NCBI GenBank assembly: GCA_012959765.1
Contig: DUCO01000006.1
Location: 102,431-166,430 of the forward strand
Reading direction: 5' to 3'
DNA: 64,000 nucleotides
Source: Dehalococcoidia bacterium
GTDB lineage: Bacteria; Chloroflexota; Dehalococcoidia; Lucifugimonadales; Lucifugimonadaceae
Shown here piece after piece: positions 1,033 through 32,508 of this stretch; within the stretch, counting starts at the first letter, position 1, and each line of letters opens with the position of its first letter. A program made the position numbers and the translations under genes. Under the pieces are notes generated by a model. It had not been told where the DNA came from. It was given only the letters and a program-made list of their open reading frames with translations, and ran no database searches.

Positions 1033-1431
1033 TTACATTGGTCCCAGTGGTGTGCCGAGTTTGTCGAGAAGGCCGCCACCCAGAACGTGCAGGTGGAGAT
1101 GGTCGACGATCTGGCCGGCATCGACACCCTGATTGAGGGCGAGGCGGTAGCCGCCTTCAGAAATTCCAGTTTGTCGTGCAACTCGTGCACCAACTCGCAA
1201 CAGGTGGCCAAGCAGCTGTTCGTGCTGCTCAATAGCGCCTGTGAGATAGGTAACGTGTTCGCGCGGCACGATGAGAACGTGAACGTTTGCGACCGGATTA
1301 ATGTCGTTGAACGCCAGACATTGGTCGTCGGAATAGATTTCGGTCGAAGGGAGTTCGCCGTGGACTATTTTGCAAAACAGACAGTCGGGTTGTCGGAGTT
1401 GGTTTTTCTCTTCTTCAGCGGTCCACCACAT
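1033..1431 (-). CDS. HIT (histidine triad) family hydrolase
   Basis: 132 residues, the usual length for HINT-type nucleotide-phosphoramidase/hydrolases. The catalytic triad HLHLHV is at residues 111-116. The N-terminal CLFCKIV (residues 17-23) is the CxxC segment many bacterial HIT proteins carry. Family knowledge gives hydrolysis of AMP-linked or other nucleoside phosphoramidates in the cytosol; the true substrate is unknown. The ATG lies 11 bases downstream of the broken acyl-CoA dehydrogenase, so the gene may be the last of that leftward operon. Confidence 0.92.
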   Translation of the reverse strand: MWWTAEEEKNQLRQPDCLFCKIVHGELPSTEIYSDDQCLAFNDINPVANVHVLIVPREHVTYLTGAIEQHEQLLGHLLRVGARVARQTGISEGGYRLALNQGVDAGQIVDHLHLHVLGGGLLDKLGTPLGPM

Positions 1432-1442
1432 GTTTTAGATCC

Positions 1443-2578
1443 TCATAGACCCATTGTGTTTGCGAGCTTAGATTTGTGAAACGACGAATCGCCGTAGTCA
1501 GTTTTCCACGCAAGAACCCTGCGAGTATAAAGGTGCAAGTCATGTTCCCATGTGAAACCGATAGCACCGTGACACTGATGGGCTGTCCAGCAGAGAGCGG
1601 ATATTTTTTCGCTTGCAGCAATTTTGGCCTGCGCTGCCCGCGTTTTGGAATAGCCGTCTTGTGAGAAACTCCACGCCGCGGAGTGGACGAGGTGGTTGAC
1701 CTGCTTCGAGGCGATCGCCATTTCTGCAAGATGATGTTGAACGGCCTGGAATGATCCCACAGCTTGCCCGAACTGTTCTCGATTTGCGGTGTATTCGACT
1801 GTGGCGTCGACTACCGCTCTGCCCAAACCCTTCGGCTTCCCAAACCTGCCATTTGAGCGGCGCGGGCGACTCCACCGGCTGCAACGAGTTCTTCAGTGGC
1901 TTTGATTGCTTCGTCGCCGGTGGCAACGATGTTTGCTTCGGGAACTTCTATTTCGTTGAACGTAATCGAGGAAACTGGAACCCCTGATACATGATCGAGA
2001 GGGGTTTGTTCGACTTCTCCCGATTTCCAGATTGGGATAACGACTAATGCTGGTTCGCCGTCGTCGGTTCTGACAAGCGTCAGGGCGTGGGTTGCCTGAT
2101 CGGCGAATGCGACGAAGCGTTTTTCGCCTGTGACCACGAGTCCGTTGGCGGTTCTGGTGGCTGCTGCTGTTGCATCGGTTGCGTCCCAGGAAACGTCTTT
2201 TTCGATGATTGCAGGGGTGATGAGAACATCGCCAGATGCTGCTTGCGGAAGCAGTTCGGATTTGAGTGATTCGGGGGCGAATCGTTCGATGATGCGTGAT
2301 GTAAGAGCCGATTCGACGAGTGGCGTGGGAGCGAGGCTTGCGCCGAGTTCTTCGAGTAGAACTGCAAGATCGCCAAACGTAAGACCAGCGCCGCCATGTT
2401 CTTCGGAGATGGTGAGTGCTGGCCAGCCGAGTTCGATAACGTCTTTCCAGAGGCTGGCGAGTGCTTCGGAATCGCCGCTGGCAACTGCCCGGGCTACCGA
2501 GGTGTCTGACCGGTCGGCAAGAAATTCTCGTGCCGAGTTGCGGATTAGTTCTTGAGTTTCTGTGAGTCCGAAATCCAA
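1443..2578 (-). pseudogene. Acyl-CoA dehydrogenase, broken by a 17-bp duplication
   Basis: Residues 1-~245 read as an acyl-CoA dehydrogenase from the ATG at 2578 (MDFGLTETQELIRNSAREFL) up to AAQMAGLG, then hit a stop at 1811. The family C-terminus resumes in another frame (LGRAVVDATVEYTANREQFG, then HQCHGAIGFTWEHDLHLY) and ends at 1443. The break sits on a direct repeat: CCCAAACC (plus strand) occurs at 1822-1829 and 1839-1846, 17 bases apart. Removing one 17-base unit restores MAGLGRAVVDATVEYT in exact family register. It lies 9 bases after an intact paralogue and was probably one half of a heteromeric FadE pair. The lesion may be real or an assembly error. Confidence 0.88.
1822..1846. repeat. 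8-bp direct repeat bounding the 17-bp frame-breaking unit
   Basis: CCCAAACC at 1822-1829 and again at 1839-1846. The unit from one copy to the next is 17 bases, not a multiple of three, and accounts fully for the frame change in the surrounding acyl-CoA dehydrogenase. The pattern is that of slipped-strand duplication. Confidence 0.85.
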
Positions 2579-6353: not shown

Positions 6354-9300
6354 ATGCGTGAATCTCAGAGTGTCGATACGGAAAACAGCGTCGGGAACGG
6401 CGACGACGGGTTTCGGGCCAGAAATACTGGTCGGGGCTCGGATTTTGTTATCGACAATTACTCTTCGAGCAGTTCCGGACCTGATTTATCGGTGAAACGG
6501 TTTATATCACGGCGGTTTACAACGCGTTATGTGCTGGCATTGATCTTGTTGCTGGCTCTGGCATTGCGGTTGTATGGCATTAACTGGGATCAGGGAGGCC
6601 TGTTTCATCCTGACGAGCGCGCGTTTCTTTCGCAGGTTTACTCACTGGAATTTCCTGAAGGCGATGAGTGGTCGCAGCTTGGCGACCCGGTAACAAGCAG
6701 GCTGAACCCGGGTTCATTTAACTGGGGAAGCCTGCCTCACTACGCTTTGAAGGCGGTTCAGTACGCCGTAGCTCCATATAAATGGATGAGCATGTTCGAT
6801 CTGCGGTTTGCGGGTCGTGCGCTTTCGGCTATTTCAGATACGGCAACCGTATTTCTGATCTTCATGATTGGGCGCGCTGTTTTTAACAACCGGATCGGGT
6901 TGATTGCTGCGGGACTTTCGGCGCTTGCCGTGCAGCAGATTCAGCTGAGTCACTTCTTTGCTGTCGACACGTTCATGACGACGTTTATTGTCGCCACGAT
7001 CTTCTATTCATTACGTGTTGCGCAGCATGGCCGCAAACGAGATTCAGTGTTAGCCGGTTTGATGTTCGGCTTCGCGCTTGCCACGAAATTTTCTGTTGCA
7101 CCGCTTGGGCTGGCGCTTGTGCTGTCGCATGTAATTTATGCGTCGTCGAAGAGCGGCGATAAGTACGAGTCGGATGGTCTTAGTTCCGACGCTTCGGCGA
7201 CTCGGCAGTGGGTTACCTGCAAGAATTTGCTGATCACGGCAGCGACGGTGCTGGTGGTGCTGATTGTTACGCAGCCGTACATGTTTCTCGATATGGGCAC
7301 GTATATCGAGAACATTTCTACGCAATCGAAGATGGTCAGGCGTGAGGTCGACTTCCCGTTCACTCGCCAGTACGCGGACACGTCGAAATACGTCTATCAG
7401 ATGGTTCAGCTGGGTACCTGGGGGCTGGGTCCGGTGCTCGGGGTGACGGTGTGGCTGGGGTTGCTTGGTGCGGTTGTTGCGGCTGTGATCAAGCGGCGCA
7501 AGGCTGATCTTGTGATTCTGGCGTGGGTGCTGCCTTACTTGCTTGTAACCGGCTGGTTCGACGTGAAGTTCACGCGGTACATGATGCCGATCACGCCGTT
7601 CCTGATTTTGTACGGGGCGAGATTGTCGTGGTGGTTGGTGGAGTCGGTTAAAGCCGTGGGATTCGATCGACGTTGGATCCAGGCGTTGCCTGTCGTCATC
7701 GTGGTTTTGTTCACGCTTCACTATTCGCTTTCGTTCATGAACGTGTATCAGGGTCAGCATCCGCTGAACGAGGTTTCAAGTTGGCTCAAGGAAAACGCTT
7801 CGCCCAATTCGAACGTTGTGCAAGAGCACTGGGAAGAGGGGATTCCTGGTGTTGTTGGCTTGCGGATGCACAAGCGAGCCGAACTTTATAACGATGAGAA
7901 TCCAGAAAAATTCAACAAGCTGACCGAGTTGCTTGTTGATTCGGAGTATTTCGTTCTTCTGAGCAACCGGCTTTATGCGACCATTCCTCGCCTGCCGGAG
8001 CGGTACCCGATCACGACTGAGTTTTACAAGAAGTTGTTTTCTGGGGAACTTGGATTTGAGCTTGCATATTCGAACGGTCGTTACATTGGCGGGTTGGGAG
8101 TCGACTATTACGAGGATCCGTTCGCTCGATTGGAATTCGGCCCGCCCGAAGGGTTCTCACCGCCTTCAGATGGACTTTTTACTGCCGGGTTCGGTTGGGC
8201 TGACGAGAGTTTTTCAGTTTACGAGCACCCGCAGACGTTCGTTTTCTTCAACACCGAGCGGAAGTCGGCGATTGAGTTACAGGGTGAGATAAGCGCTGAA
8301 CTGGCTGGGGCCAGACGCTTTAGTCCGCAGGTTGCAGGTCTGCTTCTTTCGGACGAAGACGCCGAAACTCAGCAGGCTGGCGGAACGTGGAGTGACATTA
8401 CGTTCCTTAGTTGGATGCCCGATTGGCTGACACCGGTAGTTTGGTACCTGGCAGCGCAGATTTTCGCACTGGTCGTGTTGCCGATAGCGTTTGTGGTGTT
8501 CAGGCCGTGGCCTGATCGTGGCTATCTGTTCGCAAAGCCTCTCGGCCTACTGCTGGTCGCAACGACCGCGTGGCTGCTCGTTAGCTTGAACTTGATTCAG
8601 TTCAGTTTCTTTGCCGTATTGCTGGCTCTGATAGTGCTGGCGGTTATTTCTTATCTGACTCTGTGGGCTATTGGTGATGATCTGAAAGTTCATCTGAAGT
8701 CGAACGTGCGGCGAATCGTTCGGATGGAAGTTCTGTTCCTGATTGCATATCTGGCGTTCCTGCTGATTCGTGCTGCGAACCCCGACCTCTGGGAGACGTG
8801 GAAGGGTGGCGAGAAGCCGATGGACTTCGCCTACCTGAACGCTGTTGTGAAGTCGTCGACCATACCGCCTTATGACCCGTGGTACGCCGGTGGGTATTTG
8901 AACTACTACTACTTCGGGCAGTTCATGATCGCCTCGCTAATACGGTTTACCGGGATCGTTCCTTCGGTTGCGTACAACCTTGCTGTGCCGTTGCTATTCG
9001 CGCTGACGGTTGGCGGGGTTTATTCGATTACGAGTGGGTTGGCCGAACTAACTTTGCGTGCGAGGCGTGTTCCGGCATGGTCACGGAGATCGCCTGTTTA
9101 TGCGGGGCTGGTTGCGGTTGTGTTTGTGGCTGTGGCAGGGAATATCGATGGGCTGTTGCAGGTGTTACAGGGCTTTTCACGGACGTTCTTTATGGATCAG
9201 TCGTTTGGCGAGTTCGACTTCTGGCGCAGTTCGAGAATGATGGCCCCCGGTTCGCCTGGGAACGAAATAACCGAGTTCCCGTTCTTCACTTTCTTGTTTG

Positions 9301-10787
9301 CCGATCTGCACGCCCACTTGATAGCGATACCGATTGCGATAACCGCGCTTGCGGCGTCGATTGCTGCGTATTTGAGAATCGGCAGAAACCGTTCGAAGTT
9401 CGAATCGCTTGCCGGGTTGTTCGTTATCGGTGTTCTGGTTGGATCGCTACGGACGATTAACGCTTGGGACTTCCCGACTCAGCTTCTGCTGGCGGGTGGA
9501 TTCCTGGTAGGTGGGCAGTTGCTTGCGACGAACCGGCCGGTGATCGAACGACTGGTGATTGGTGTTGCGAGCACGTTGTTTGTGGCGGTTGTGGGTCATC
9601 TTGTTTATCTGCCGTTCCATGCGAGCTTCGAACTGTTCAATAGCGGTGTCGTAAAGAGCGAATTCTCGACGGATCTCTGGCGATACATCGTGATCCACTC
9701 GATCTTCCTGCTGGCGGTTATTAGCTGGCTGGTGTTTATGTGGCGAGAGCGACTTTCGGACGCGTTCGAAATCATTAGCAACGCACCGGCTAAGGGATCG
9801 GGACTGCGTGCCTGGCGATGGCATATCGTGTTTGTGTTGGTTGCTGCGGTGGTTGCTACTCTGGCGGCTTCCGGGTTTGCCACGATTTCGTTTACGGTGA
9901 TTGTTGGTGCATTGACTCTTGCGACGGGAACGGTTGCTTATCGGACTGGCTTGTCGGGCTCGAGATATGCGTTTGTTGCTATCGGAATGGTTGTGATGGC
10001 GATGGCGTTGGCAGCTGGTGTCGAAAGGTTCACGGTCAAAGACGATATTGGCCGGATGAACACCGTGTTCAAGTTCTACCTGCAGGCATGGATACTGTTG
10101 GCGATGGCTGCGGCCTACTTCCTGTGGTTTCTGGGCGACGCTGGCAAGTTTTCGTTGAGTAAATTGCGTGCTCCCCGTGGGGTTTGGATGGGATTGCTGG
10201 CGGTGCTGGTGATTGGCGTGATGGTCTATCCGGTTCTTGGAACACGCGACCGCAATGCTGTGCGGTTTGAACACAGTGGTCTTGGGCTGGATGGCATGGC
10301 GTACATGGAGACGGTTGTTTACAACGACGCTGGGGGGCCGTTGATGCTGAAGTACGACTTCGACGCTATCGAGTGGCTGCAGGAAAACGTTGAGGGTTCG
10401 CCGGTAATCATTGAGGGTCTGAGTGATCAGTATCGATGGGGGAACCGGGTGTCGATTTACACCGGGTTGCCAGCGGTTATCGGCTGGGATTGGCATCAGC
10501 GTCAGCAGCGGGTTGGCTATGCGGGAACCGTTTCTCAGCGACGGGCGGAGGTGGATCGCTTCTATGACTCCACGTCGATCTTTGCAGCTACGGCGTTTCT
10601 CGACCGGTATAACGTGAAGTACGTCTACGTCGGCGAGATGGAGCGGGTCAAGTACCCGAAGAATGCGCTGGCGAAGTTCGAGGAGATGGAGAGCAAGGGG
10701 CTGGTGCAGGTGTATCCGACTCCGGCGATGACGGATGATGGGGTTGAGACACCGGTGGTGATTTACGAGTACGCCGCGGTTGAGTAG
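6354..10787 (+). CDS. GT-C glycosyltransferase / DUF2298 (YYY) fusion membrane protein
   Basis: 1477 residues, start ATG at 6354. The N-terminal half (about residues 50-620) is a PMT/ArnT-like GT-C glycosyltransferase: membrane helices, then GLFHPDERAFL with the acidic pair expected to bind lipid-sugar donor, and a SWLKEN-type lumenal region. After a linker and more helices, the C-terminal half (about 780-1477) matches DUF2298, the Chloroflexi/archaeal 'YYY' family, with EKPMDFAYLNA and the signature GGYLNYYYFGQF. I infer a role in glycosylating cell-envelope polymers or proteins from polyprenyl-phosphate sugars. The fusion of the two halves is the notable feature. Confidence 0.88.
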   Translation: MRESQSVDTENSVGNGDDGFRARNTGRGSDFVIDNYSSSSSGPDLSVKRFISRRFTTRYVLALILLLALALRLYGINWDQGGLFHPDERAFLSQVYSLEFPEGDEWSQLGDPVTSRLNPGSFNWGSLPHYALKAVQYAVAPYKWMSMFDLRFAGRALSAISDTATVFLIFMIGRAVFNNRIGLIAAGLSALAVQQIQLSHFFAVDTFMTTFIVATIFYSLRVAQHGRKRDSVLAGLMFGFALATKFSVAPLGLALVLSHVIYASSKSGDKYESDGLSSDASATRQWVTCKNLLITAATVLVVLIVTQPYMFLDMGTYIENISTQSKMVRREVDFPFTRQYADTSKYVYQMVQLGTWGLGPVLGVTVWLGLLGAVVAAVIKRRKADLVILAWVLPYLLVTGWFDVKFTRYMMPITPFLILYGARLSWWLVESVKAVGFDRRWIQALPVVIVVLFTLHYSLSFMNVYQGQHPLNEVSSWLKENASPNSNVVQEHWEEGIPGVVGLRMHKRAELYNDENPEKFNKLTELLVDSEYFVLLSNRLYATIPRLPERYPITTEFYKKLFSGELGFELAYSNGRYIGGLGVDYYEDPFARLEFGPPEGFSPPSDGLFTAGFGWADESFSVYEHPQTFVFFNTERKSAIELQGEISAELAGARRFSPQVAGLLLSDEDAETQQAGGTWSDITFLSWMPDWLTPVVWYLAAQIFALVVLPIAFVVFRPWPDRGYLFAKPLGLLLVATTAWLLVSLNLIQFSFFAVLLALIVLAVISYLTLWAIGDDLKVHLKSNVRRIVRMEVLFLIAYLAFLLIRAANPDLWETWKGGEKPMDFAYLNAVVKSSTIPPYDPWYAGGYLNYYYFGQFMIASLIRFTGIVPSVAYNLAVPLLFALTVGGVYSITSGLAELTLRARRVPAWSRRSPVYAGLVAVVFVAVAGNIDGLLQVLQGFSRTFFMDQSFGEFDFWRSSRMMAPGSPGNEITEFPFFTFLFADLHAHLIAIPIAITALAASIAAYLRIGRNRSKFESLAGLFVIGVLVGSLRTINAWDFPTQLLLAGGFLVGGQLLATNRPVIERLVIGVASTLFVAVVGHLVYLPFHASFELFNSGVVKSEFSTDLWRYIVIHSIFLLAVISWLVFMWRERLSDAFEIISNAPAKGSGLRAWRWHIVFVLVAAVVATLAASGFATISFTVIVGALTLATGTVAYRTGLSGSRYAFVAIGMVVMAMALAAGVERFTVKDDIGRMNTVFKFYLQAWILLAMAAAYFLWFLGDAGKFSLSKLRAPRGVWMGLLAVLVIGVMVYPVLGTRDRNAVRFEHSGLGLDGMAYMETVVYNDAGGPLMLKYDFDAIEWLQENVEGSPVIIEGLSDQYRWGNRVSIYTGLPAVIGWDWHQRQQRVGYAGTVSQRRAEVDRFYDSTSIFAATAFLDRYNVKYVYVGEMERVKYPKNALAKFEEMESKGLVQVYPTPAMTDDGVETPVVIYEYAAVE

Positions 10788-19272: not shown

Positions 19273-20685
19273 TCAGCCTGCGGTAGCTCGGGGCCAGATT
19301 TTTTTGGCTATGCCGGTGCTTGGCATTGCGATTGACAGTGCGCCAATGACTCCCAGTGTCAGGCTGATCCAGAGGGCCTTGTCGTAGCTTCCTGTTGAGT
19401 CGTAGATCTGACCTGCCAGCCAAACTGCGGTCGAAGCACCTATCGGCATGACCATGAACATGGTGCCGATTATTGTGCCGAGTCTACGTAATCCGAACTC
19501 GTCGGAGCTAACGGTTCCTGTAAGAGAAATTACCGACGTCCACGAGCTTCCAATGCATACGATTCCGGCTATCGCACCGGGCAGGCTGGTCGACATTAGG
19601 AGGATGGCGTATCCGATAGCTCGCATAACGAACGCAAAGGAAAGTAAGGGGCGTCGGCCAAATCTATCGGCCAGTAAACCGAAGCCGAGTCCGCCTGCGA
19701 TTCCCGCGATTCCCACGGTAACGAGCGCGTATGCGCCGTTAATGGCTGTTGTGCCGAAGTCTGTCGTGTAAGCGACGAAGTGGGCATTCACGAAGCCCAT
19801 TGTGTAGCCTCATATGAAGAAGCCGATAGTGAGTCGCCAGAAGAGTCCTGTTCGGCACGCCTGACCAAGCGACAGGCCGATATTTGGGTTTGCGGACCCC
19901 TTTGTAAAAGCTTCGGATTCATCACCGTTGAGGATTGCTTCGTCTTCTTCGTCGGCGTGCTGGCCGGGTCCAGGTCGGCTCCTCAGAAGGATGATTACGA
20001 GTGGCAGGACGAGCGCCAGCATTATTCCCGACAGGATCAGGTAGCCCTCACGCCAGCCGAGAAATGCTACTGCCAGCGCCGCAATGGGCACCATAGAGGA
20101 TTCACCGACGGCTGAGCCTGTACCTGCTACTGACATCGCCAGAGCTCGTCTGCGGGTGAACCATGCACCTACGATTTTCGCGACTGCTCCCGGCGATGCG
20201 AGTGTGCCGCCGATGCCCATGATTACGAACAGTACGTAGACGTGCCACAGATCCTGGACGAACGACATTCCTGCGAGGGCGAGTCCACCGACTATAACTC
20301 CGCTGGCAGCGATTCGTTTTGGGTCGTATCGATCAGCGAGAATTCCGGCGACGGGCCTTAGTGCCCCGGTGGCGAGCCCGGCAATTGCCAGTGCTCCGGC
20401 GAGCGATCCGCGGCTCCAGTCGAACTCTTCGGTTACGGGTTTTAGAAATACGCCGAAAGAGAATCGCGATCCAGCGCCGCCGAACAACATGATCGCGGTG
20501 CCGAGAACGACATACCAGCCGTAATGGATGTTTCGGATTTTGGAGATTTCGTGGTTACCGAGTGGTGGGGGTCGAGATATCGATGATGGCAGCGCAGGAT
20601 ATCTGATCCCTGAGGGTGGTTGCGGGGTTTTGCGGGGGTGGTTGCGATTGTCTGTCGTTTTTTGAGTCCGGGCGGGCATTCGCAC
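19273..20685 (-). pseudogene. MFS transporter interrupted by in-frame TGA
   Basis: One reading frame covers a complete 12-helix MFS carrier, but a TGA at 19810-19812 splits it: LTIGFFI, stop, GYTMGFVNAHFVAYTTD. Relatives of this monocarboxylate/oxalate-type MFS group have Cys or a similar residue at that point, so a single base change explains the stop. Conserved MFS features are kept on both sides (GILADRYDPKR, LLADRFGRRPLL). The start is unclear: the family N-terminus IHYGWYVVLGTA begins near 20530, and the nearest standard start codon I see is at about 20685. It could be a recent pseudogene or a consensus error. Confidence 0.82.
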
Positions 20686-22233: not shown

Positions 22234-22656
22234 ATGAATCCAGAACATTTTGAACTGCTGAACGGCACCGCAGAAGAACTTACGGCGTGGCACCGCGCGC
22301 ACTCACCTGAGCAGCTCGACTTGAAGGGTGCTGATCTCTCGGGTCGAGATTTGCGGGGTCGAGACTTTACTCGTGCGAATCTTGAGCGGGCCGATTTATC
22401 GGGGGCGAATCTGGATGAAGCGGTGTTTTCTGAGGCCAGTTTGCGCAGGGCGAAACTGGTTGGTGCGTCGATGAAAAAAGTTACGCTTTACCGAACGAAT
22501 TGCACCGGTGCCGATATTTCTGATGCCGATCTGACCGGGGCGAATATGTATCGCTGCGTGTTGCGTGAGGCCACGATTACGGGTGCGAACTTTAAGATGG
22601 CTGCGATTTTCAAGGTGGCGTGGCCTGAGGGTGTGGATGTGAGGGCGCACGGGTGA
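22234..22656 (+). CDS. Pentapeptide-repeat protein
   Basis: 140 residues. From about residue 28 the sequence follows the A(D/N)LxX pattern in tandem: LKGADLSGRDLRGRDFTRAN, LERADLSGANLDEAVF and so on for about 17 repeats, giving a right-handed quadrilateral beta-helix. The family includes gyrase protectors such as Qnr/MfpA as well as many proteins of unknown role; nothing here marks the gyrase type. Downstream lies a family-A repeat. Confidence 0.9.
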   Translation: MNPEHFELLNGTAEELTAWHRAHSPEQLDLKGADLSGRDLRGRDFTRANLERADLSGANLDEAVFSEASLRRAKLVGASMKKVTLYRTNCTGADISDADLTGANMYRCVLREATITGANFKMAAIFKVAWPEGVDVRAHG

Positions 22657-22767
22657 GGTCGCCAGGCGACGTTTTGTTTGGGGTGCCGAGAGCACGTTTT
22701 GATTTGGGTGATTGGCTTATGGCCAAAACGGGGTTAGCGTTCGACAGCTGATTCCCGCGTCAAGCGT

Positions 22768-22806
22768 TCCCCCTCAACCTAACCTTCTCCCTAGGGAGAA
22801 GGGATA
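22768..22806 (+). repeat. Family-A intergenic repeat
   Basis: CCCCCTCAACC then CCTTCTCCCTAGGGAGAAGG, a perfect 20-base palindrome at its 3' end. It sits between convergent genes. Just upstream, GTTTTGTTTGGGGTG (about 22671-22685) is shared with about 19131-19145. Confidence 0.78.
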
Positions 22807-22829
22807 AAACAGAGGAGCAGACGTACAAG

Positions 22830-23840
22830 CTAGCCGCTGAGGCCGCCGGTTACTCGCATTAGGGTTTCTTGGACGAGGAGTTCGTGGTCCAGGGTTCGTA
22901 GCGGCTCTGATTCGCCTTTGATGTTGCGAACTAACTCGGCAAATGTATCGACGTAGCGGGCACGGTGTTCGATCTTGACTGTGTTGACGCCTTTTTTGTA
23001 TTCGCCCTGATCCTCTCCGAGTGTCAGCCGAATCGTATCGGCGGGTTCAAACGGCTCCATGATTGCTGAGCCTTTGGTGCCGTAGACCTCGAAGCGTCGT
23101 GCCATTGGGCGTGTTTCCATTGCTGCGATATCGACAGTTGCAATGGCGTTGCCGTATTCGAACACGCCCAGCGTGTTGTCCATTACATCACGATTTTCGG
23201 AAGTGGCGTTCTGGAAGAATCGAGACACTCTGTTGGGGCGGCCGAGTATCCACACGACCTGATCGAGCATGTGCCCACCGAGGTCGTACATCACACCACC
23301 CTTGTGGTGGGCAAGCCCTTCGCGTCCGGTGAACTGACCTTCTGGATTTTTTTCTGGAATCCATGTCGACATGTGTGCTCGGACCTGAAATATGTCGCCT
23401 AAAAAGCCTGAACGTGCCCAGTTGGCAATTCGTTCAAAGCCATCGTGCTTGCGGAACATGTAGCCCATCTGGATCATTGTGCCCTGTGCTCGGGCGATCT
23501 CGATGATGTGCTCGAATCTTGGGTAGTCATCGCCCGCTGGCTTGTCGTAGAAAACGTGCTTTCCGGCGGCGACGATCTCTTCGGTGAATCCGAGACTTTC
23601 CTTGTTGGCACCTTCTGACGTGACGCAATCGACCATGGGGTCGTCGAGAAAATCGTCTGGGTCATCGATGAAATCAACATTGGCCCACGATCCGCTGTTT
23701 TCTACTTGCTCGCGCCGGACTGCATCGGGTTCGTAGACGCCGACTACTTCGACTTCCGGGTGGTCGAGCATTACCTGTAGCACCCCTTCTGCGTGACCGT
23801 GCTTTGTTCCGTACTGGGCCATTCGCAGTTTTTCGGGCAT
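22830..23840 (-). CDS. Gfo/Idh/MocA family oxidoreductase
   Basis: 336 residues from the ATG at 23838-23840 (MPEKLRMAQYGTKHGHAEGV); the frame stays open 20 codons further. The N-terminal Rossmann NAD(P) domain includes VEVVGVYEPDA. The EKP-like motif is replaced by YDKPAGDD (Lys kept). The C-terminal substrate domain follows GGVMYDLGGHMLDQVVWILG. It likely interconverts hydroxyl and keto groups on a sugar, inositol or sugar acid; the substrate is unknown. It lies downstream of the stressosome genes on the same strand. Confidence 0.9.
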   Translation of the reverse strand: MPEKLRMAQYGTKHGHAEGVLQVMLDHPEVEVVGVYEPDAVRREQVENSGSWANVDFIDDPDDFLDDPMVDCVTSEGANKESLGFTEEIVAAGKHVFYDKPAGDDYPRFEHIIEIARAQGTMIQMGYMFRKHDGFERIANWARSGFLGDIFQVRAHMSTWIPEKNPEGQFTGREGLAHHKGGVMYDLGGHMLDQVVWILGRPNRVSRFFQNATSENRDVMDNTLGVFEYGNAIATVDIAAMETRPMARRFEVYGTKGSAIMEPFEPADTIRLTLGEDQGEYKKGVNTVKIEHRARYVDTFAELVRNIKGESEPLRTLDHELLVQETLMRVTGGLSG

Positions 23841-23915
23841 AGAGATCACCACTCCGGGTTTTAGTAAAGGCGAGCACCGTTGGTATTCGTGCGGGTACAC
23901 AAATGTTGGAGCAGT

Positions 23916-24383
23916 CTACGCCGTGAATCGGAGTTGGCGGGTTGATTCGCCGGGTATTACGCGTGCGAAATTATTGGTAGTTTGTGCAAGAAGAAGGGCG
24001 GATTCGAGCCAGGCTCCCCATTCTTCGGCGGGGATTGCCTTTGAATATTTCCAGCCAAGATTCGCTCCTATCGAGGCGTACGAAACTTCATGGTTTGTTC
24101 GATCGATCTTTGCGATGTTGAGTGAGACGCCACGAGTGTGACGTATTGCTCTGTCGCACCCTTTTATGGTCGTCTCTATGTATTGCGAATGGTTACTGGT
24201 TATCCAACTCAACGCAGCTTCCGAAGCCTCGGCAGCACCTTCGCCATGGCCAAGACCGTCCGAGATAACAAGCCAAGTGTTGTCAGCGTCATCCCACACC
24301 GCGCCATCATCTCCACACACCTGTTCTTTCGGGTGGGGCTTGCGGGCAAAATAAAATGTCTGGGATGAAGTAAGGAAACTCAC
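23916..24383 (-). CDS. rsbX: RsbX-like PP2C/SpoIIE-domain phosphatase, short
   Basis: 155 residues from the GTG at 24381-24383, which overlaps the RsbT stop (GTGA) and implies translational coupling. Residues ~20-100 match the N-terminal PP2C core of stressosome phosphatases: CGDDGAVWDDADNTWLVISD then GLGHGEGAAEASEAAL, with Asp residues for metal binding. The normal C-terminal strands (GN.EAR, GIVG) are not recognisable in any frame, and the protein is shorter than B. subtilis RsbX (~200). Role in the family: dephosphorylates RsbR/RsbS to reset the stressosome. It may be a divergent or truncated member. Confidence 0.75.
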   Translation of the reverse strand: MSFLTSSQTFYFARKPHPKEQVCGDDGAVWDDADNTWLVISDGLGHGEGAAEASEAALSWITSNHSQYIETTIKGCDRAIRHTRGVSLNIAKIDRTNHEVSYASIGANLGWKYSKAIPAEEWGAWLESALLLAQTTNNFARVIPGESTRQLRFTA

Positions 24384-24790
24384 CAGATCTGCTTTTCCAT
24401 AGTTATTTCTACACGCGTGTGCCCTGGCTCCGACGAAATTTTGAATTCGCTCACGAGTCTTCGAGTTCCCGGCAGGCCAGCACCCAGTGTTCCGCCTGTT
24501 GTGTAGCCGTCGGTCATCGCAGTCTAGATATCTGGAATGCCCGGGCCGTGATCTTCAACTACCACCCGAATTTTGTTGCACTCGGCGGTCGACTCGTCGT
24601 AAATCATGCATTCGCCGACTTCGGCGTATTTGATGACATTGCGTGTTAGTTCGGAGATGGCCGTGGCGAGTCTGGTTTGATCGGCAGATCCGAATCCGAC
24701 CTTCCTTGCCATATCGCGGCCTGATCGCCGGGCTGTAACCACATCGGCATCATGGTTGATCGGTACGCGTTCAGAAGTTGCGGTAGTCAT
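24380..24790 (-). pseudogene. rsbT: RsbT-like stressosome switch kinase, in-frame TAG
   Basis: The ATG at 24788-24790 opens an RsbT-type HATPase: AISELTRNVIKYA (N-box, Asn51) and VVVEDHGPGIPDI (residues 76-88). A TAG at 24524-24526 follows. The same frame then continues with TAMTDGYTTGGTLGAGLPG, the ATP-lid glycine motif, to a TGA at 24380-24382. The product stopped at TAG would lack the ATP lid. One base change from GAG, CAG or AAG explains the stop. RsbT normally phosphorylates RsbR/RsbS and then leaves to activate a downstream phosphatase. Confidence 0.88.
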
Positions 24791-24869
24791 TCTTCTGCCT
24801 CGAGATCAGTGGAGACGTACGCCGACTGTTTATTCCGCTCCTCGATCGTTGGATTTCAACGAGTCCTTT

Positions 24870-25187
24870 TTACAGATTTAGCGCAGTTTTTACACCGATT
24901 AGCTCGCTGCCCATATCGACAAGGGTGATTGCGACTGCTGGCTGCATTCCCGTAATGACAGTTTGACTGCCGAGAATGTTTACCATCGTCGATATTTCAT
25001 TGAGTATTCGGGCCATATAGAAGTCAACCATGTCGATGGCTGAGATTTCGATGACGAGGCCAGCTGCGCGTGTCTCCGAAACACGAGTGATTATCTGTTC
25101 CTGGAGTTCGACGATTTCGTCATCGCTAAGGTCTTCTTGAATAGCGACAAGCAGCACATCGCCGAGCGTAAGAATTGGAGTGATCAA
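24870..25187 (-). CDS. rsbS: RsbS-like STAS scaffold protein lacking the phospho-serine
   Basis: 105 residues, single STAS domain, closely following RsbS: ILTLGDVLLVAIQEDLSDDE and VVITGM-like QTVITGMQPAVAITLVDMG. The phosphorylated serine of RsbS (VDSF in relatives) is replaced by Phe56 in IDMVDFYMAR; TTC here is one transition from TCC. The TTG start has GGGGAG eight bases upstream and lies 5 bases past the rsbR stop. With Phe there, RsbT could not phosphorylate this site, so the switch would be locked or non-functional. Confidence 0.88.
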   Translation of the reverse strand: MITPILTLGDVLLVAIQEDLSDDEIVELQEQIITRVSETRAAGLVIEISAIDMVDFYMARILNEISTMVNILGSQTVITGMQPAVAITLVDMGSELIGVKTALNL

Positions 25188-25192
25188 ACGAA

Positions 25193-26023
25193 CTACTCCC
25201 CGGATACTCTAGAAACTCGGTACCCGAGTGTCGCCAGAGCCTGGGCAACCCCTTGTTTCAGCGCCCCGCTTGTACTGACCGACGATAGATCGACGCCAAG
25301 TTGTGTCAGAGTTCTTGCGGCGTCGGCACTGAAACCGGTGATGATCACTTCAGCACCCATGATCTGGGCAGCCCGAACGGTTTTCAGGAGATGTGTAGCC
25401 ACGTCTGTATCTATCAGCGGCACGCCGGTCACATCGAGGACGGCGACGGTCGCCTGTTTGTCGAGAATGGCCTAGAGCAGCGATTCGGTAATCTGATTCG
25501 CTCGTTCGGAATCTACTGATCCGATGATCGGAAGCATCAACAGATGGTCCCAGAGTTCGATAACGGGTGTCGAAAGCTCTTCGATGAGTCGACGCTGCTG
25601 CATCTGGAGCTCGCGCTCGGCCTGTTTTTGTTCGGTGAGATCTCGAATTACGCCGACGAACATTCGCCGACCTCCGGCTGTTGCTTCGCCGATACTCACT
25701 AAAACCGGAAACTCTCGCCCGTCTTTGTTTGGGCCTCGCTCTTCGCGGCTAAGACCAATAATTTTCTTTACACCGGAGTTCTTATACGCCTCAATGTACG
25801 AATCATGCTCACCGTGGTACGGCTCGGGCATGATTATGTCGACGTTTTGCCCGATCGCTTCTTTGGCTGTGTAGCCGAACATATTTTCTGCGGCCGGGTT
25901 AAACGCTTCGATCACTCGGTCTTCACTGATAGTGATCACGGCATCAACGGTTGCCGAAATGATCGCTTCTAAACGTGCAACGGATTCTGCCTGATTCGCA
26001 CCTGAGCCTTTGACTTTCGCCAT
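25193..26023 (-). pseudogene. rsbR: RsbR-like sensor with FixL-type haem PAS and STAS domain, in-frame TAG
   Basis: ATG at 26021-26023 with AGGGG seven bases upstream. Residues ~13-131 are a PAS domain with FixL's haem-PAS signature: MPEPYHGEHDSYIEAY (His73, equivalent to FixL His200) and KKIIGLSREE (Arg93, equivalent to FixL Arg220), with the same 20-residue spacing. A coiled linker leads to a C-terminal STAS domain (STPVIELWDHLLMLP, GVPLIDTDVATHL). A TAG at 25472-25474 (codon 184, where relatives have Glu: ESLL-x-AILDKQ) interrupts the STAS domain; the frame is otherwise intact to 25193. I infer an O2/NO/CO-sensing stressosome sensor. Confidence 0.85.
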
Positions 26024-26067
26024 TTGATTCACCCCTCTACCACCCCATGGATTGGACGCCTTCGGCA

Positions 26068-26115
26068 CCATGCGCATCTTTTAACGCCTTTTTGGGCGTT
26101 AAAAGATGCGCATGG
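26068..26115. repeat. Perfect 21-bp inverted repeat
   Basis: Arms 26068-26088 and 26095-26115 are perfectly complementary around a 6-base TTTTTG loop. The arm contains GCATCTTTTAACGCC. It lies between the end of the trp operon and rsbR, both leftward. It could be a terminator, a protein-binding site or the trace of a small mobile element; there is no T-run outside the stem. Confidence 0.9.
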
Positions 26116-26232
26116 GTAATGTGTCGGTGTGAAATTGGTTACCGGCGTGAACAAGCCATGTAGTTGCGACCTATTTTGCGATCAATAGCCGCGAAATTGA
26201 CGTGAGCCCACGCATGTCCAGCGACCTGGATG

Positions 26233-26898
26233 TTAGGCAGATCGAACGGATTGTATGAACGCTCTAATTCGGTCGGGGTTTTTAACGCCGTCGGTTTCGA
26301 CACCACTTGCAACGTCGACGCCCCATGGCGAGAGTTGGGTGATGGCGCTCTGGACGTTTTCAGGATTTAACCCGCCGGCTAGAAGTACGTTTTCTCGGTT
26401 TGCTATGCCTTCAGCGGCTGACCAGTCGAACGATTTGCCGGATCCACCTGGCGTTTTCTTATCGTAGACGTCGAGCAACACACCGGTGTCGGCGCTCAGG
26501 AGTGGCGCGACTATTTGGTCGAGGTCGGCGGGTGTTGTGCCGTCTTTTACTCGAACCATTTTGAAGATGGGGATCTCTATTTTCGAGATGTAGTCGACGT
26601 CTTCATCGCCACAGAGTTGCAGGTAGTCGAGCCCAGCTTTACGTGAGATGTCGTTGACGAAATCGGGGGACTGATTCAGGAATAGTCCGACCAGACCGGG
26701 GCGATTTGTGTTTTCGCTTTTCGACAGGCCGGCGCGGTATTCAGCGATTATCTGAATGCCTTCGTCTGGTTGAAGCTGCCTGCGTACACCTTCCACGAAG
26801 TTGAAGCCGAGGTAGTCGGCACCGGCATTTGCGGTGACGAGTGCGGCTTCAGTGCTGCGTAGGCCGCAGATTTTTATTCGGGTTGGTTTGGGCGACAT
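26233..26898 (-). CDS. trpF: Phosphoribosylanthranilate isomerase
   Basis: 221 residues from the ATG at 26896-26898, 4 bases after the trpC stop. Family motifs: RIKICGLRSTEAALVTANAG (catalytic Cys in KICG), DYLGFNF, a GLVGLF strand and LQLCGDED. The C-terminal phosphate-binding strands read NVLLAGGLNPENV and GVDVASGVET, the latter after the catalytic Asp in GVLLDVYDK. It catalyses the Amadori rearrangement of PRA to CdRP in tryptophan synthesis. It is the last gene of the leftward trp block. Confidence 0.95.
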   Translation of the reverse strand: MSPKPTRIKICGLRSTEAALVTANAGADYLGFNFVEGVRRQLQPDEGIQIIAEYRAGLSKSENTNRPGLVGLFLNQSPDFVNDISRKAGLDYLQLCGDEDVDYISKIEIPIFKMVRVKDGTTPADLDQIVAPLLSADTGVLLDVYDKKTPGGSGKSFDWSAAEGIANRENVLLAGGLNPENVQSAITQLSPWGVDVASGVETDGVKNPDRIRAFIQSVRSA

Positions 26899-26902
26899 AT
26901 TG

Positions 26903-27715
26903 CTAACCGACTTCCACTGCCGACATCGCCTTTGCAAGCTCGCTTACGTCGTTTCCGGCTTTCATGAGCGATTCGCCTACGAGTACGGCTTTTGCACCGG
27001 CGTAGCCCATGCGCTCGACGTCGGCCGAGTTTTTCATGCCGCTTTCGGCAACTCGAATTCGGTCGTCAGGAATTTTTCTGGCGAGTGTTTCGAATACGGA
27101 AAGCGAGGTTTTGAGTGTTTTCAGATTTCGGTTGTTGATGCCGATGATGTTTGGTTCGATTTCCATAGCGATGTCGAGTTCATGTTCATCAAAAACTTCG
27201 ACAAGGACGTCCATTCCCATCGAGGTTGAGATCGTGAACAGGTCGGCGTATTGCTTGGGGTCGAGGCAGGCGATGATGAGGAGGATGCAGTCGGCTCCAG
27301 CGGCTCGGGCTTCGTGCACCTGGTACTCGTCGACGATGAAATCTTTGCGCAGCACGGGAACCCGTGACGCTCGGGAGATGATCGACACTGCTGCCAGGTC
27401 GTCTATCGAGCCAGAGAAGTAGTCGGGTTCGGTGAGAACGGATATGGCGGCGGCTCCGGCGTCGCAGTAAAGGCTTGCGCGATTGGGTGGATCGAGGTTG
27501 GGGTCGAGAGATCCTGCCGATGGCGAGGACCGTTTCATTTCGGCGATCAGCGATATGCCGCTCTTTGCACCAATAGCGCGCTGAAGCGAAAGTGGAACGC
27601 TGGAATTTTCCGCGATGGTGCGGAGTTCCTGAAGGCTGCGTTTCTTCTTGGCCTGTTCGATGGTGACGAGTCGTTTTTCGACGATTTCACCAAGGATTCC
27701 GGGGATTTCTATCAA
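26903..27715 (-). CDS. trpC: Indole-3-glycerol phosphate synthase
   Basis: 270 residues, TTG start overlapping the trpD stop (TTGA). Motifs: SLIAEMKRSSPSAG (catalytic Lys), PVLRKDFIVDEYQVHEARAA, LDVLVEVFDEHEL-like segment with the catalytic Glu, IGINNRNLKTL, VAESGMK and AVLVGESLMKA. It closes CdRP to indole-3-glycerol phosphate. The enzyme is not fused to TrpF, as in most non-enteric bacteria. Confidence 0.96.
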   Translation of the reverse strand: MIEIPGILGEIVEKRLVTIEQAKKKRSLQELRTIAENSSVPLSLQRAIGAKSGISLIAEMKRSSPSAGSLDPNLDPPNRASLYCDAGAAAISVLTEPDYFSGSIDDLAAVSIISRASRVPVLRKDFIVDEYQVHEARAAGADCILLIIACLDPKQYADLFTISTSMGMDVLVEVFDEHELDIAMEIEPNIIGINNRNLKTLKTSLSVFETLARKIPDDRIRVAESGMKNSADVERMGYAGAKAVLVGESLMKAGNDVSELAKAMSAVEVG

Positions 27716-29408: not shown

Positions 29409-30962
29409 TTATTCGCCGTTGATTAGCATTGTCGCAGTGTGCGGGGATTGAGTTGGAATATTTTCGGTGCTTCGCCAGTGTTCCGCCGGTTGTTCGTTGT
29501 TGTGGGGCATCGCTTCGGCGCGTGCGATCGCCAGCAGAGGTGCTTTTGCCTTCTGGAGTGATTCGAGATTTTCGGCTTCGGGATCTGAGTCGAACACGAT
29601 TCCGGCTCCGCCTTGAACGTGGGCTGTGCCGTCACGTAAAACGATTGATCGGATGATTGTTCCGGTGTCGACATCGCCGTTCGCACCGAACCAGCCGATT
29701 CCACCGCAGTAGGGTCCGCGTCCTGCGGGTTCGAGTTCGGAAATTAGCTGTATCGACCGGATTTTCGGTGCGCCTGAAAGTGTTCCAATTGGGAATCCTG
29801 CTTTGAACGCTGCTATCCCGTCGTTGTCGTCGGTTAGTTGCCCTTCGACTCTGGAAACGAGGTGCATTACGTGCGAGTAGCGTTCGATGTGTTTGAACGA
29901 TTTGACGATTACGGAGCCGGGTTGGCAGACGCGTCCGAGGTCGTTGCGGGCGAGGTCGACAAGCATTACGTGTTCAGCCGATTCCTTCTCGTTTGAGAGT
30001 AGTTCGGCTTCGTTCAGGAGGTCTTCTTCGGCGGTTGCGCCTCGGGGTCGGGTTCCGGCGATCGGGTGGATTGCTGCTGTGTTGCCGGTTGTGCGCAACA
30101 TGAGTTCTGGTGATGCGCCGATTAGTTGCATGTCGCCGAGATCGAGCATGTACATGTAGGGCGATGGGTTCATGGTCGACAGTTGTTCGTAGATGTCGAT
30201 CGGGTTGGCAGTCGTGGTGGTTTCGACTCGTTGGCCGAGTACGACCTGGATCAACTCGCCGTTGATGATTGCTTCGCGGGCTTTTTTCACCATCCCGCTG
30301 TATTCACATTGACTGGTCTGTTTTTCCGTGGTCGCATGCAGGCTCGACTGGATTTCTGTGATGGTTGGTTCGGATTCGCTGGATGACAGTGCTTCGAGCG
30401 AGTCATGGATGTCGGAAATGCGGCTGACAGCGGATTCAAATTGATCGGTAGTACGTTGGGTGAAGATGATGATGTGTAGCTGATCTAGTGCGCGGTCGAA
30501 TACGAGTAGTTCTCGCGGGAACACCAGTGCTGAGGTTGGCGAGTTTGTTGGATCGGATGGTAGTTCTCCAACCGACGGTTCGAAGTGTTTAATTGCTTCG
30601 TAAGCGACGTAACCGAATGCTCCCGTGACCAAGTCTGGGAGGCCATCGATGGGCGCAACGGATCGGGATTCGAGGTGCTCTCGCAATGCTGCGATCGGGT
30701 TGATGTCGCCGTGTGATTCGTATTGGCCGGTGCGAATTACGTACTCGATTTTCGGGCAGACGTAGGCGTATCGAGATGCTCCGGCTTCTGGCGATTCAGA
30801 TTCAAATGTGAAGGCGGGCTGTGCGACTTGTCGCAGGTTTCTTAGCGCGTCAATCGGCCGAATACTGCTGCCTTCGACGATGGCATGAACCGGCACGATG
30901 TCGCATTGCTTCGAAGCGTTTTGAAATTCGTCACTGGTGACTTTGAAGATCAGGCTAGGCAC
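29409..30962 (-). CDS. trpE: Anthranilate synthase component I, divergent second copy
   Basis: 517 residues. Chorismate-binding core intact: [57 protein letters not shown], and a C-terminal [15 protein letters not shown]. The PIAGT motif has Ala where ADC synthases (PabB) have Lys, which favours anthranilate synthase. The feedback-site segments FTFES and NPSPYM are present. The GTG start overlaps the stop of the upstream trpE by 8 bases. A C-terminal tail of ~35 polar residues follows the catalytic domain. It is more divergent than its neighbour; a PabB-like role is the main alternative. Confidence 0.88.
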
Positions 30963-32508
30963 CTGCCGATTCCTCCGCGTGGTCGATGGCTCGCATTAAA
31001 GCTCCCATTTTATGGAGGGTTTCTTCGTACTCGGTCTGGGTATCGCTATCGGCAACAATTCCGCCACCGGCCTGCAGGTACGCAACGCCGTCTTTTATCA
31101 CCATGGTTCGCAGTGAGATTGCGGTGTCCATGTTGCCTGTGAAGCTGAAGTAGCCGACTGCGCCGCTGTAGGGTCCACGTTTGTCGGGTTCGAGTTCGGC
31201 GATTAGCTGCATGGCTCGAACCTTGGCGGCACCCGAAACGGTTCCGGCGGGAAAGGCAGCCTTCATGGCGTCGAACATGTCGTACTTTTTGGAAAGATCA
31301 CCCGTTACGTGCGACACGATGTGCATTACATGGGAGTACTTTTCGATCTCGAAACTCTGGGTTACATCGACGCTGCCGGGGTTTGAAACTCGGCCAACGT
31401 CGTTGCGGCCAAGATCGAGAAGCATGACGTGTTCTGCGATTTCTTTTTCATCTTTCAGGAGCTCGTTTTCTAGCTCGTCATCGTGTTCTGGATTAATACC
31501 ACGAGGGCGTGTTCCGGCGATCGGATGAACCGCCATTTTGCCGTCGATCACCTGTGTCAGAAGCTCTGGGGAAGCACCGACGATCTGGAATCCATCGAGT
31601 TCGAGAAAGAACATGTACGGAGATGGGTTAATAGCTCTGAGGGAGCGGTACAGATCGAATGGTTTTACGGGTGTTCGACGTGCGAGCCGTTGCGAGAAAA
31701 CGACCTGAATTACTTCGCCGTCTTGAATCGCCTGTTTGCACTTTGCGATCGCTTCGCCGTAGTACTCGCGTGTCATGTTGGGCACGTAGGGCTGCTCGGT
31801 GATTTCGCCGTGATCCAATGGTGACTGGTCGGGGCTGCCGACCGAGCTGTAGTCGAGATTGGGATCGCGTGATGTAAAGCCGGACGTTGGCATGAAGTTC
31901 CGGCGGGCTTCTCCGGGGGGAACTGGCTTGTCGAGCCGGGCGATTATCTCTTCGATTCTCGCTGTTGCACGTTCGTAGGATGCTTCTGCATCGCCGTTGT
32001 TCACGGCTGCATGGGCGACTACGAATATTGTGTGGCGAACGTGATCGAAGATCAGGAGTGTATCTGTGAGCATGAACACAGATTCAGGCACGTTGAGTCC
32101 CGACTTTTCATCGGTGATTGGCGGGACTGAGGGCTCGAAGTGGCGGATGGTGTCGTAGGCGAGATAGCCAACTGCACCACCGTGGAATTTTGGAAGGCCT
32201 TCGACGTTTGCGTATTTTATGGACGACATGTGATTCCGCAGCAGTTCGAGCGGGTCGATTTCGCCGAGTTCAGTGCCGGCGCCTGTTGTGAACACCCGTG
32301 ACGGTTCTGTGCCGAGCATGCTGTAGCGCGCAAGATTTTCGCCGCCTTCGACCGATTCGAAGAGGAACGAGTGGCTGCCGGTGGTGGTTTTCAAGTAGGC
32401 AGAGACCGGTGTTTCAAGATCGGCACTGATTTCGCGATAGACGGGGATCAGGTTGTGCGTCTGGGCGAGGGATTTAAATTCTGTTAGATCTGGTGTGTAG
32501 TCGGGCAT
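30955..32508 (-). CDS. trpE: Anthranilate synthase component I
   Basis: 517 residues, canonical TrpE. The N-terminal regulatory region has SFLFESVEGGENLARYSMLG (tryptophan feedback pocket) and NPSPYMFFLELDGFQIVGAS. The catalytic domain has [39 protein letters not shown] and YLQAGGGIVADSD. With TrpG it converts chorismate and glutamine to anthranilate. It is the first of two tandem trpE genes, 162 bases after trpS; no second T-box or leader peptide is visible in that gap. Confidence 0.95.
   Translation of the reverse strand: MPDYTPDLTEFKSLAQTHNLIPVYREISADLETPVSAYLKTTTGSHSFLFESVEGGENLARYSMLGTEPSRVFTTGAGTELGEIDPLELLRNHMSSIKYANVEGLPKFHGGAVGYLAYDTIRHFEPSVPPITDEKSGLNVPESVFMLTDTLLIFDHVRHTIFVVAHAAVNNGDAEASYERATARIEEIIARLDKPVPPGEARRNFMPTSGFTSRDPNLDYSSVGSPDQSPLDHGEITEQPYVPNMTREYYGEAIAKCKQAIQDGEVIQVVFSQRLARRTPVKPFDLYRSLRAINPSPYMFFLELDGFQIVGASPELLTQVIDGKMAVHPIAGTRPRGINPEHDDELENELLKDEKEIAEHVMLLDLGRNDVGRVSNPGSVDVTQSFEIEKYSHVMHIVSHVTGDLSKKYDMFDAMKAAFPAGTVSGAAKVRAMQLIAELEPDKRGPYSGAVGYFSFTGNMDTAISLRTMVIKDGVAYLQAGGGIVADSDTQTEYEETLHKMGALMRAIDHAEESAGA

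Follow-up and report, generated by a model that had tools for sequence, protein, structure and literature searches.

The 64,000 nucleotides analysed here (the window), from contig DUCO01000006.1 of a Dehalococcoidia bacterium, carry an rsbR-rsbS-rsbT-rsbX stressosome cluster with stops in rsbR, rsbS and rsbT and with an rsbX that is fused to the remains of a likely output gene. It is likely that this cluster is a recently disabled relic, and that its intact form in relatives is a stressosome with a FixL-type PAS sensor that is tied to cyclic di-GMP (c-di-GMP). In the window genome no gene of the circuit is whole, be it for sensor, scaffold, kinase, phosphatase or output: rsbR, rsbS, rsbT and rsbX each carry a lesion and the likely output gene is down to a tail of about 20-27 codons. 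Because every gene of the cluster is interrupted, the stressosome is likely dead in this marine organism of the SAR202 group; the O2/NO/CO-responsive stressosome that the initial annotation had inferred for it is not supported.

The disrupted cluster and its lost output

The open reading frame (ORF) of rsbR is on the minus strand, with its ATG at 26023 and its stop at 25472-25474, and ends after 183 codons. Of a STAS domain of some 115 residues (an extent taken from the match of the intact orthologue P0003 to the RsbS entry 6jhk), it covers about the first 30. Downstream, on the same strand, rsbS, rsbT and rsbX adjoin rsbR in this order, each of them interrupted:

25475-26023, minus strand: readable first part of the rsbR-like gene (183 codons), with the FixL-type PAS domain, a linker helix and the first ~30 STAS residues
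25640-25975, minus strand: PAS domain, residues 17-128 (Pfam PF00989, E 6.6e-15; coordinates derived from the residue range)
25805-25807, minus strand: His73, at the position of the FixL proximal haem ligand His200 (sequence and structural alignment)
25745-25747, minus strand: Arg93, at the position of the FixL distal Arg220 (sequence and structural alignment)
25472-25474, minus strand: in-frame TAG that cuts the STAS domain of rsbR
25193-25471, minus strand: remainder of the rsbR STAS domain, in the same frame past the TAG (Pfam STAS, E 7.8e-7)
24870-25187, minus strand: rsbS, 105 codons, then TAA at 24870-24872 (Pfam STAS, E 2.3e-8)
24849-24850, minus strand: 3' end of rsbS, with four bases fewer than in Candidatus Lucifugimonas marina, a frame shift (DNA alignment; coordinate counted from it)
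24527-24790, minus strand: readable first part of rsbT, HATPase, 88 codons
24524-24526, minus strand: in-frame TAG in rsbT; the frame stays open to about 24378
23916-24383, minus strand: rsbX, of which the first ~112-117 codons run into the tail end of the likely output protein (fusion)
24048-24056, minus strand: rsbX/output junction, matching the L. marina rsbX and output gene alike (blastn pieces 24048-25242 and 24018-24056)
23997-24056, minus strand: final residues of an RsbU_N-GGDEF-EAL protein (20 residues, 80% identity, E 3.9e-7)
26068-26115, no strand: inverted repeat with perfect 21-nt arms and a 6-nt loop, just upstream of rsbR

An N-terminal sensor followed by a full STAS domain is encoded by P0003 and not by the window, where the TAG cuts the domain. 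The description of the protein as a PAS joined to a STAS domain thus holds in part: the first ~30 STAS residues are encoded and the rest lies beyond the TAG. The linker-plus-STAS part of the window gene is 93% identical to P0003. The uninterrupted rsbR, rsbS and rsbT of a working stressosome are absent from the window, and RsbR has a PAS in place of a globin sensor domain.

The reference for the lesions further downstream is L. marina (genome G001, locus L129), in which the rsbS-rsbT-rsbX-(RsbU_N-GGDEF-EAL) cluster is intact: rsbS, rsbT and rsbX are followed by a protein of 563 residues with RsbU_N (9.7e-10), GGDEF (9.2e-21) and EAL (4.3e-66) domains. The TAA of rsbS is premature compared with L. 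marina RsbS, which runs past that point, and three further loci (L100, L115 and L124) have L. marina RsbS matches that extend 9-16 residues beyond the stop of the window gene. With its stop read as X, the window RsbT is 84% identical to the intact L. marina RsbT. The window rsbX matches that of L. marina over its first ~117 residues. At the rsbX/output junction the two blastn matches share nine bases, and the corresponding places in L. marina are 1.8 kb apart; a deletion has therefore probably taken the last part of rsbX and almost the whole gene that follows it. RsbU_N is the domain through which RsbT activates RsbU in Bacillus, and the output is thus probably a c-di-GMP enzyme switched by RsbT.

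A search for the output gene elsewhere in the window genome (G000) found no copy, the one 27-residue remnant being all that was seen, and no GGDEF domain was found in this 92%-complete assembly. There are four STAS matches in G000: rsbR, rsbS and, on another contig, two long frames of 584 and 538 amino acids, which are likely permeases, judged by their size; thus, no spare RsbR was found. L. marina has two STAS matches (rsbS and a frame of 516 amino acids), and a short piece of 17 residues upstream of its rsbS weakly resembles the RsbR C-terminus (E 0.11) and equals, by eye, the last 17 residues of P0018. L. marina seems to have lost rsbR: at 7118-10315 of locus L129, rsbS-rsbT-rsbX and the RsbU_N-GGDEF-EAL gene are kept and no RsbR was found, so that L. 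marina has a stressosome without its sensor. The words 'stressosome' and 'di-GMP' are both absent from PMC10444878, which describes L. marina.

The inverted repeat at 26068-26115 lies between a trpF-like gene and rsbR and covers an alternative upstream ATG of rsbR. No second copy was found in the genome assembly, and an Rfam search of window positions 22500-27000 gave no match.

The FixL-type PAS domain and its relatives

The FixL signature of the window PAS is real, and the domain is predicted to bind haem. The motifs named in the initial annotation, with His73 and Arg93 at a spacing of 20 residues, are indeed encoded by the minus-strand ORF: PEPYHGEHDSYIEAY carries His73, and Arg93 follows 20 residues further on. 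Alignment with FixL structures places His73 on His200 and Arg93 on Arg220, and the model of the window PAS aligns to the O2-bound FixL haem domain (1dp6) without a gap (residues 27-142 on 154-269, 116/116 aligned). Among solved structures, the best sequence relative is FixL (8js5, E 1.2e-31), followed by DosP and then YtvA; fold comparison also ranks FixL first. The order of NCBIfam matches is FixL (4.3e-37), general sensory box (7.1e-30), YtvA (7.9e-17, a match that takes in the STAS part) and DosP (3.6e-16), and of these four only the sensory box reaches its cut-off.

Conservation in intact relatives, on which the annotated haem site depended, is as expected: intact full-length PAS-STAS orthologues exist at 81-86% identity and keep both the His and the Arg. 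These orthologues, together with the rsbS, rsbT and rsbX that adjoin rsbR in the window, support the proposed sensor design of a FixL-type PAS on a STAS domain. The His/Arg pair is present in 74 of 80 distinct PAS stretches that are at least 40% identical to the P0003 PAS (one of the 80 is uncovered there), in 12 of 23 stretches at 32-40% identity (three uncovered) and in 4 of 22 below 32%. The count leaves out one stretch, that of the window gene itself, and is biased toward His, as many loci were fetched by exact 8-residue words, one of which adjoins the His. The pair is more than chance.

The stressosome cluster is an accessory trait: in a search of the 76 family genomes, G000 and G001 were the 2 of the genus (19 genomes) in which RsbT was found, and a search of 250 order genomes at E 1e-15 gave 4 with RsbT, counting G000. 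Apart from G000, no second PAS-STAS protein of the ~85% kind was found among the genomes of the genus (19), family (76) and order (250) or in samples of the class (393) and phylum (400). These searches scored the best candidates per genome only and were done with the truncated RsbR product (genus and family), with the X-bearing P0001 at E 1e-20 (order) and with P0006 at E 1e-40 (class and phylum samples). PAS-STAS-like matches in G127, G256, G866 and G909 are 36-40% identical and none has the His/Arg pair (H/I, L/not covered, Y/R and L/gap, respectively), and the order search also returned STAS-only matches with other N-termini (G113, G121, G127). Of 62 loci of named genomes that carry a FixL-type PAS, none matches the linker-STAS part of RsbR, so these loci carry other PAS proteins. 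When viral contigs were scanned with P0003, none of the 17 pattern matches was a relative; this bears on viral copies and not on other mobile origins.

Intact RsbR is apparently linked to RsbT, with equal largest-contig sizes of 23707 (the contig of P0003), 89767 (that of P0006), 3652, 5144 and 6695; such equal sizes of the largest contigs listed are all that connects RsbR, RsbT and the output protein in relatives. PAS-only or STAS-only pieces of RsbR (P0018, P0021, P0029, P0035 and P0039) are listed in several relatives, which suggests repeated breakage or splitting of rsbR.

Relatives do have a FixL-PAS stressosome, which is probably wired to c-di-GMP. In the intact circuit, the PAS would hold haem via the His, and the Arg would contact bound O2. 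The ligand state would alter the phosphorylation of the RsbR and RsbS STAS domains by RsbT; released RsbT would bind RsbU_N of the GGDEF-EAL enzyme and thereby alter c-di-GMP, with RsbX as the factor that would reset the switch. That the PAS binds haem and responds to gas, that RsbT is released and that c-di-GMP is controlled in this way, we infer from FixL, from the globin stressosomes of Vibrio (PMC4976288 and PMC9237108) and from the RsbU_N domain.

Nature and age of the lesions

The damage appears recent. Of 202 RsbR columns without variation among eight intact orthologues, 7 differ in the window copy (1-9 in each of the others when left out in turn), and of 83 such columns in RsbT, 1 differs (others 0-1). 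dN/dS (the ratio of nonsynonymous to synonymous substitution rates) against L. marina was not used since synonymous sites are saturated (dS 2.5-2.9, undefined for rsbX).

Other genes of the window are interrupted as well. A major facilitator superfamily (MFS) transporter gene at 19273-20685 (minus strand) has an in-frame TGA at 19810-19812 that divides it in two, and both halves match MFS_1. The ORF of an acyl-CoA dehydrogenase at about 1200-2578 (minus strand) ends early at 1811; its C-terminal part continues in another frame, which points to a frame shift. At 29409-32508 (minus strand), two tandem ORFs of 517 amino acids each, overlapping by a few bases, stand at the head of a trp-like cluster; we take them, by eye, to be anthranilate/aminodeoxychorismate synthase component I-like.

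Several points weigh against a recently disabled FixL-PAS stressosome. As the missense rate is not raised, the lesions are either recent or, less likely, wrong or tolerated, or selection of some kind continues, and the interruption of at least two other window genes leaves some room for base errors in the assembly. The cut in rsbS is the mildest of the four lesions, removing the C-terminal end only, and calling its stop premature rests mainly on L. marina. The absence of GGDEF from G000 says little by itself, being common in the genus: eight of the 19 genomes have the domain and 11, G000 included, have none. Nor was a contig seen that combines an intact haem-PAS RsbR with the output protein, which is apparently linked to partial RsbR ORFs (equal largest-contig sizes of 11543, 60076 and 189248). 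The helix that bears His73 is modelled with low confidence in the window product (predicted local distance difference test, pLDDT, blocks of 67 and 58). Finally, the position of FixL Arg206, a residue that matters in FixL signalling (PMC10765370), is Ala79 in the window and Lys or Asn in close orthologues, and the switch may thus differ from that of FixL.

It is possible, though rather unlikely, that the ancestral PAS neither bound haem nor sensed O2: His and Arg would then be inherited residues of a domain that senses redox or another ligand or only dimerises, all of which is compatible with a relic. Against this, the window PAS keeps the His, the Arg and the hydrophobic distal residues Ile88, Ile89, Val109 and Ile111 of the haem pocket described for FixL (PMC10765370), and its best relatives are the haem domains of FixL and DosP. 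The same list of relatives includes the solved FixL haem-domain entry 2cmn, whose sequence reads Ala at the 206 position.

Improbable is an origin of the stops and the frame shift in sequencing or assembly errors, with a working haem-PAS stressosome in the living population. The lesions do sit in otherwise undrifted sequence, and the MFS and acyl-CoA dehydrogenase genes of the same window are interrupted too. However, truncated forms recur on other contigs: P0012 ends at the same residue as the window RsbR and is identical across all 183 residues, its contig having three differences to the window just upstream, and 10 contigs, the largest of 103,026 bases, are given for the 88-residue RsbT stump P0140, although the samples need not be independent. 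The gap at rsbX/output covers 1.8 kb of L. marina, and neither an output gene nor a GGDEF domain was found elsewhere in the genome.

We give still less weight to the idea that the cell retains the truncated product of ~183 amino acids as a haem PAS protein in its own right, for sensing or storing a gas ligand. The PAS has its complete sequence and no excess of missense change, but the product ends in ~30 residues of a cut STAS fold, modelled with low confidence (pLDDT blocks of 54-63), its partner genes are broken as well, and it has no linked output.

Least credible of all is readthrough of TAG by suppression or recoding, which would give full-length RsbR and RsbT and a working circuit: two lesions are TAG, with both frames open and conserved past the stop, but TAG ends 26 of 52 hand-picked window ORFs (23 of 48 without the four stressosome ORFs; one of these 23 is an interrupted gene), rsbS has a TAA and four missing bases, the output enzyme is gone, and none of the five tRNAs in the window, to which the tRNA scan was confined, reads TAG. 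TAG recoding was rejected on the stop usage of the other ORFs and on the TAA and frame shift of rsbS.

Comparison with known stressosomes and haem sensors

The haem stressosomes described in PMC4976288 and PMC9237108 use globins, in agreement with what the initial annotation says of known haem RsbR proteins. Among the open-licence papers listed, judged by titles and the starts of abstracts, no haem-PAS stressosome was found, and those that mention both stressosomes and FixL do not deal with such a design. There is perhaps an even chance that an oxygen-sensing stressosome of a second type arose in SAR202 bacteria and in some proteobacteria, one whose STAS shell carries a FixL-type haem PAS where the known type has a globin and whose released kinase, in SAR202, drives an RsbU_N-GGDEF-EAL c-di-GMP enzyme, and that Lucifugimonas relatives are now shedding it by separate routes: loss of the sensor in L. 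marina, loss of output and kinase here. If a FixL-type PAS does sit on a stressosome scaffold, gas-sensing stressosomes would have arisen more than once, and the movement of the STAS shell by a sensor domain could be approached from a second side. The differing states of the cluster within one genus that has a cultured member are a natural series of the loss of a stressosome-c-di-GMP circuit.

YtvA, the blue-light RsbR paralogue with a LOV-STAS architecture, likewise has a PAS-fold sensor joined to STAS, and P0003 matches the NCBIfam family YtvA_fam with E 3.2e-32 and 112 bits (cut-off 250); YtvA binds flavin, however, and the window-type PAS is nearer to FixL than to LOV. The Moorella stressosome controls a diguanylate cyclase and thus offers a precedent for a link to c-di-GMP (PMC4976288); the comparison covers this link, and the likely L. 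marina output is an RsbU_N-GGDEF-EAL protein.

With FixL of Bradyrhizobium and Sinorhizobium, the window PAS shares sequence and fold, the His and Arg 20 residues apart, hydrophobic distal residues and the RDLTE end of the PAS. It lacks Arg206 and His214, its haem binding is a prediction, and its output differs, being a STAS stressosome domain in the window and its orthologues and a histidine kinase in FixL. The Soret band of FixL lies at about 418 nm in the oxy, 434 nm in the reduced and 424 nm in the CO form (PMC10765370).

The O2-sensing stressosomes of Vibrio (VbRsbR and VvRsbR, globin-STAS) share the rsbRSTX module, with a sensor on RsbR that is here predicted to bind haem. The L. marina protein, of c-di-GMP type and with RsbU_N, is a further likeness, as c-di-GMP and RsbU_N-bearing outputs occur among globin stressosome modules (PMC9237108). 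In contrast to Vibrio, the sensor here is a FixL-type PAS and the window cluster is broken.
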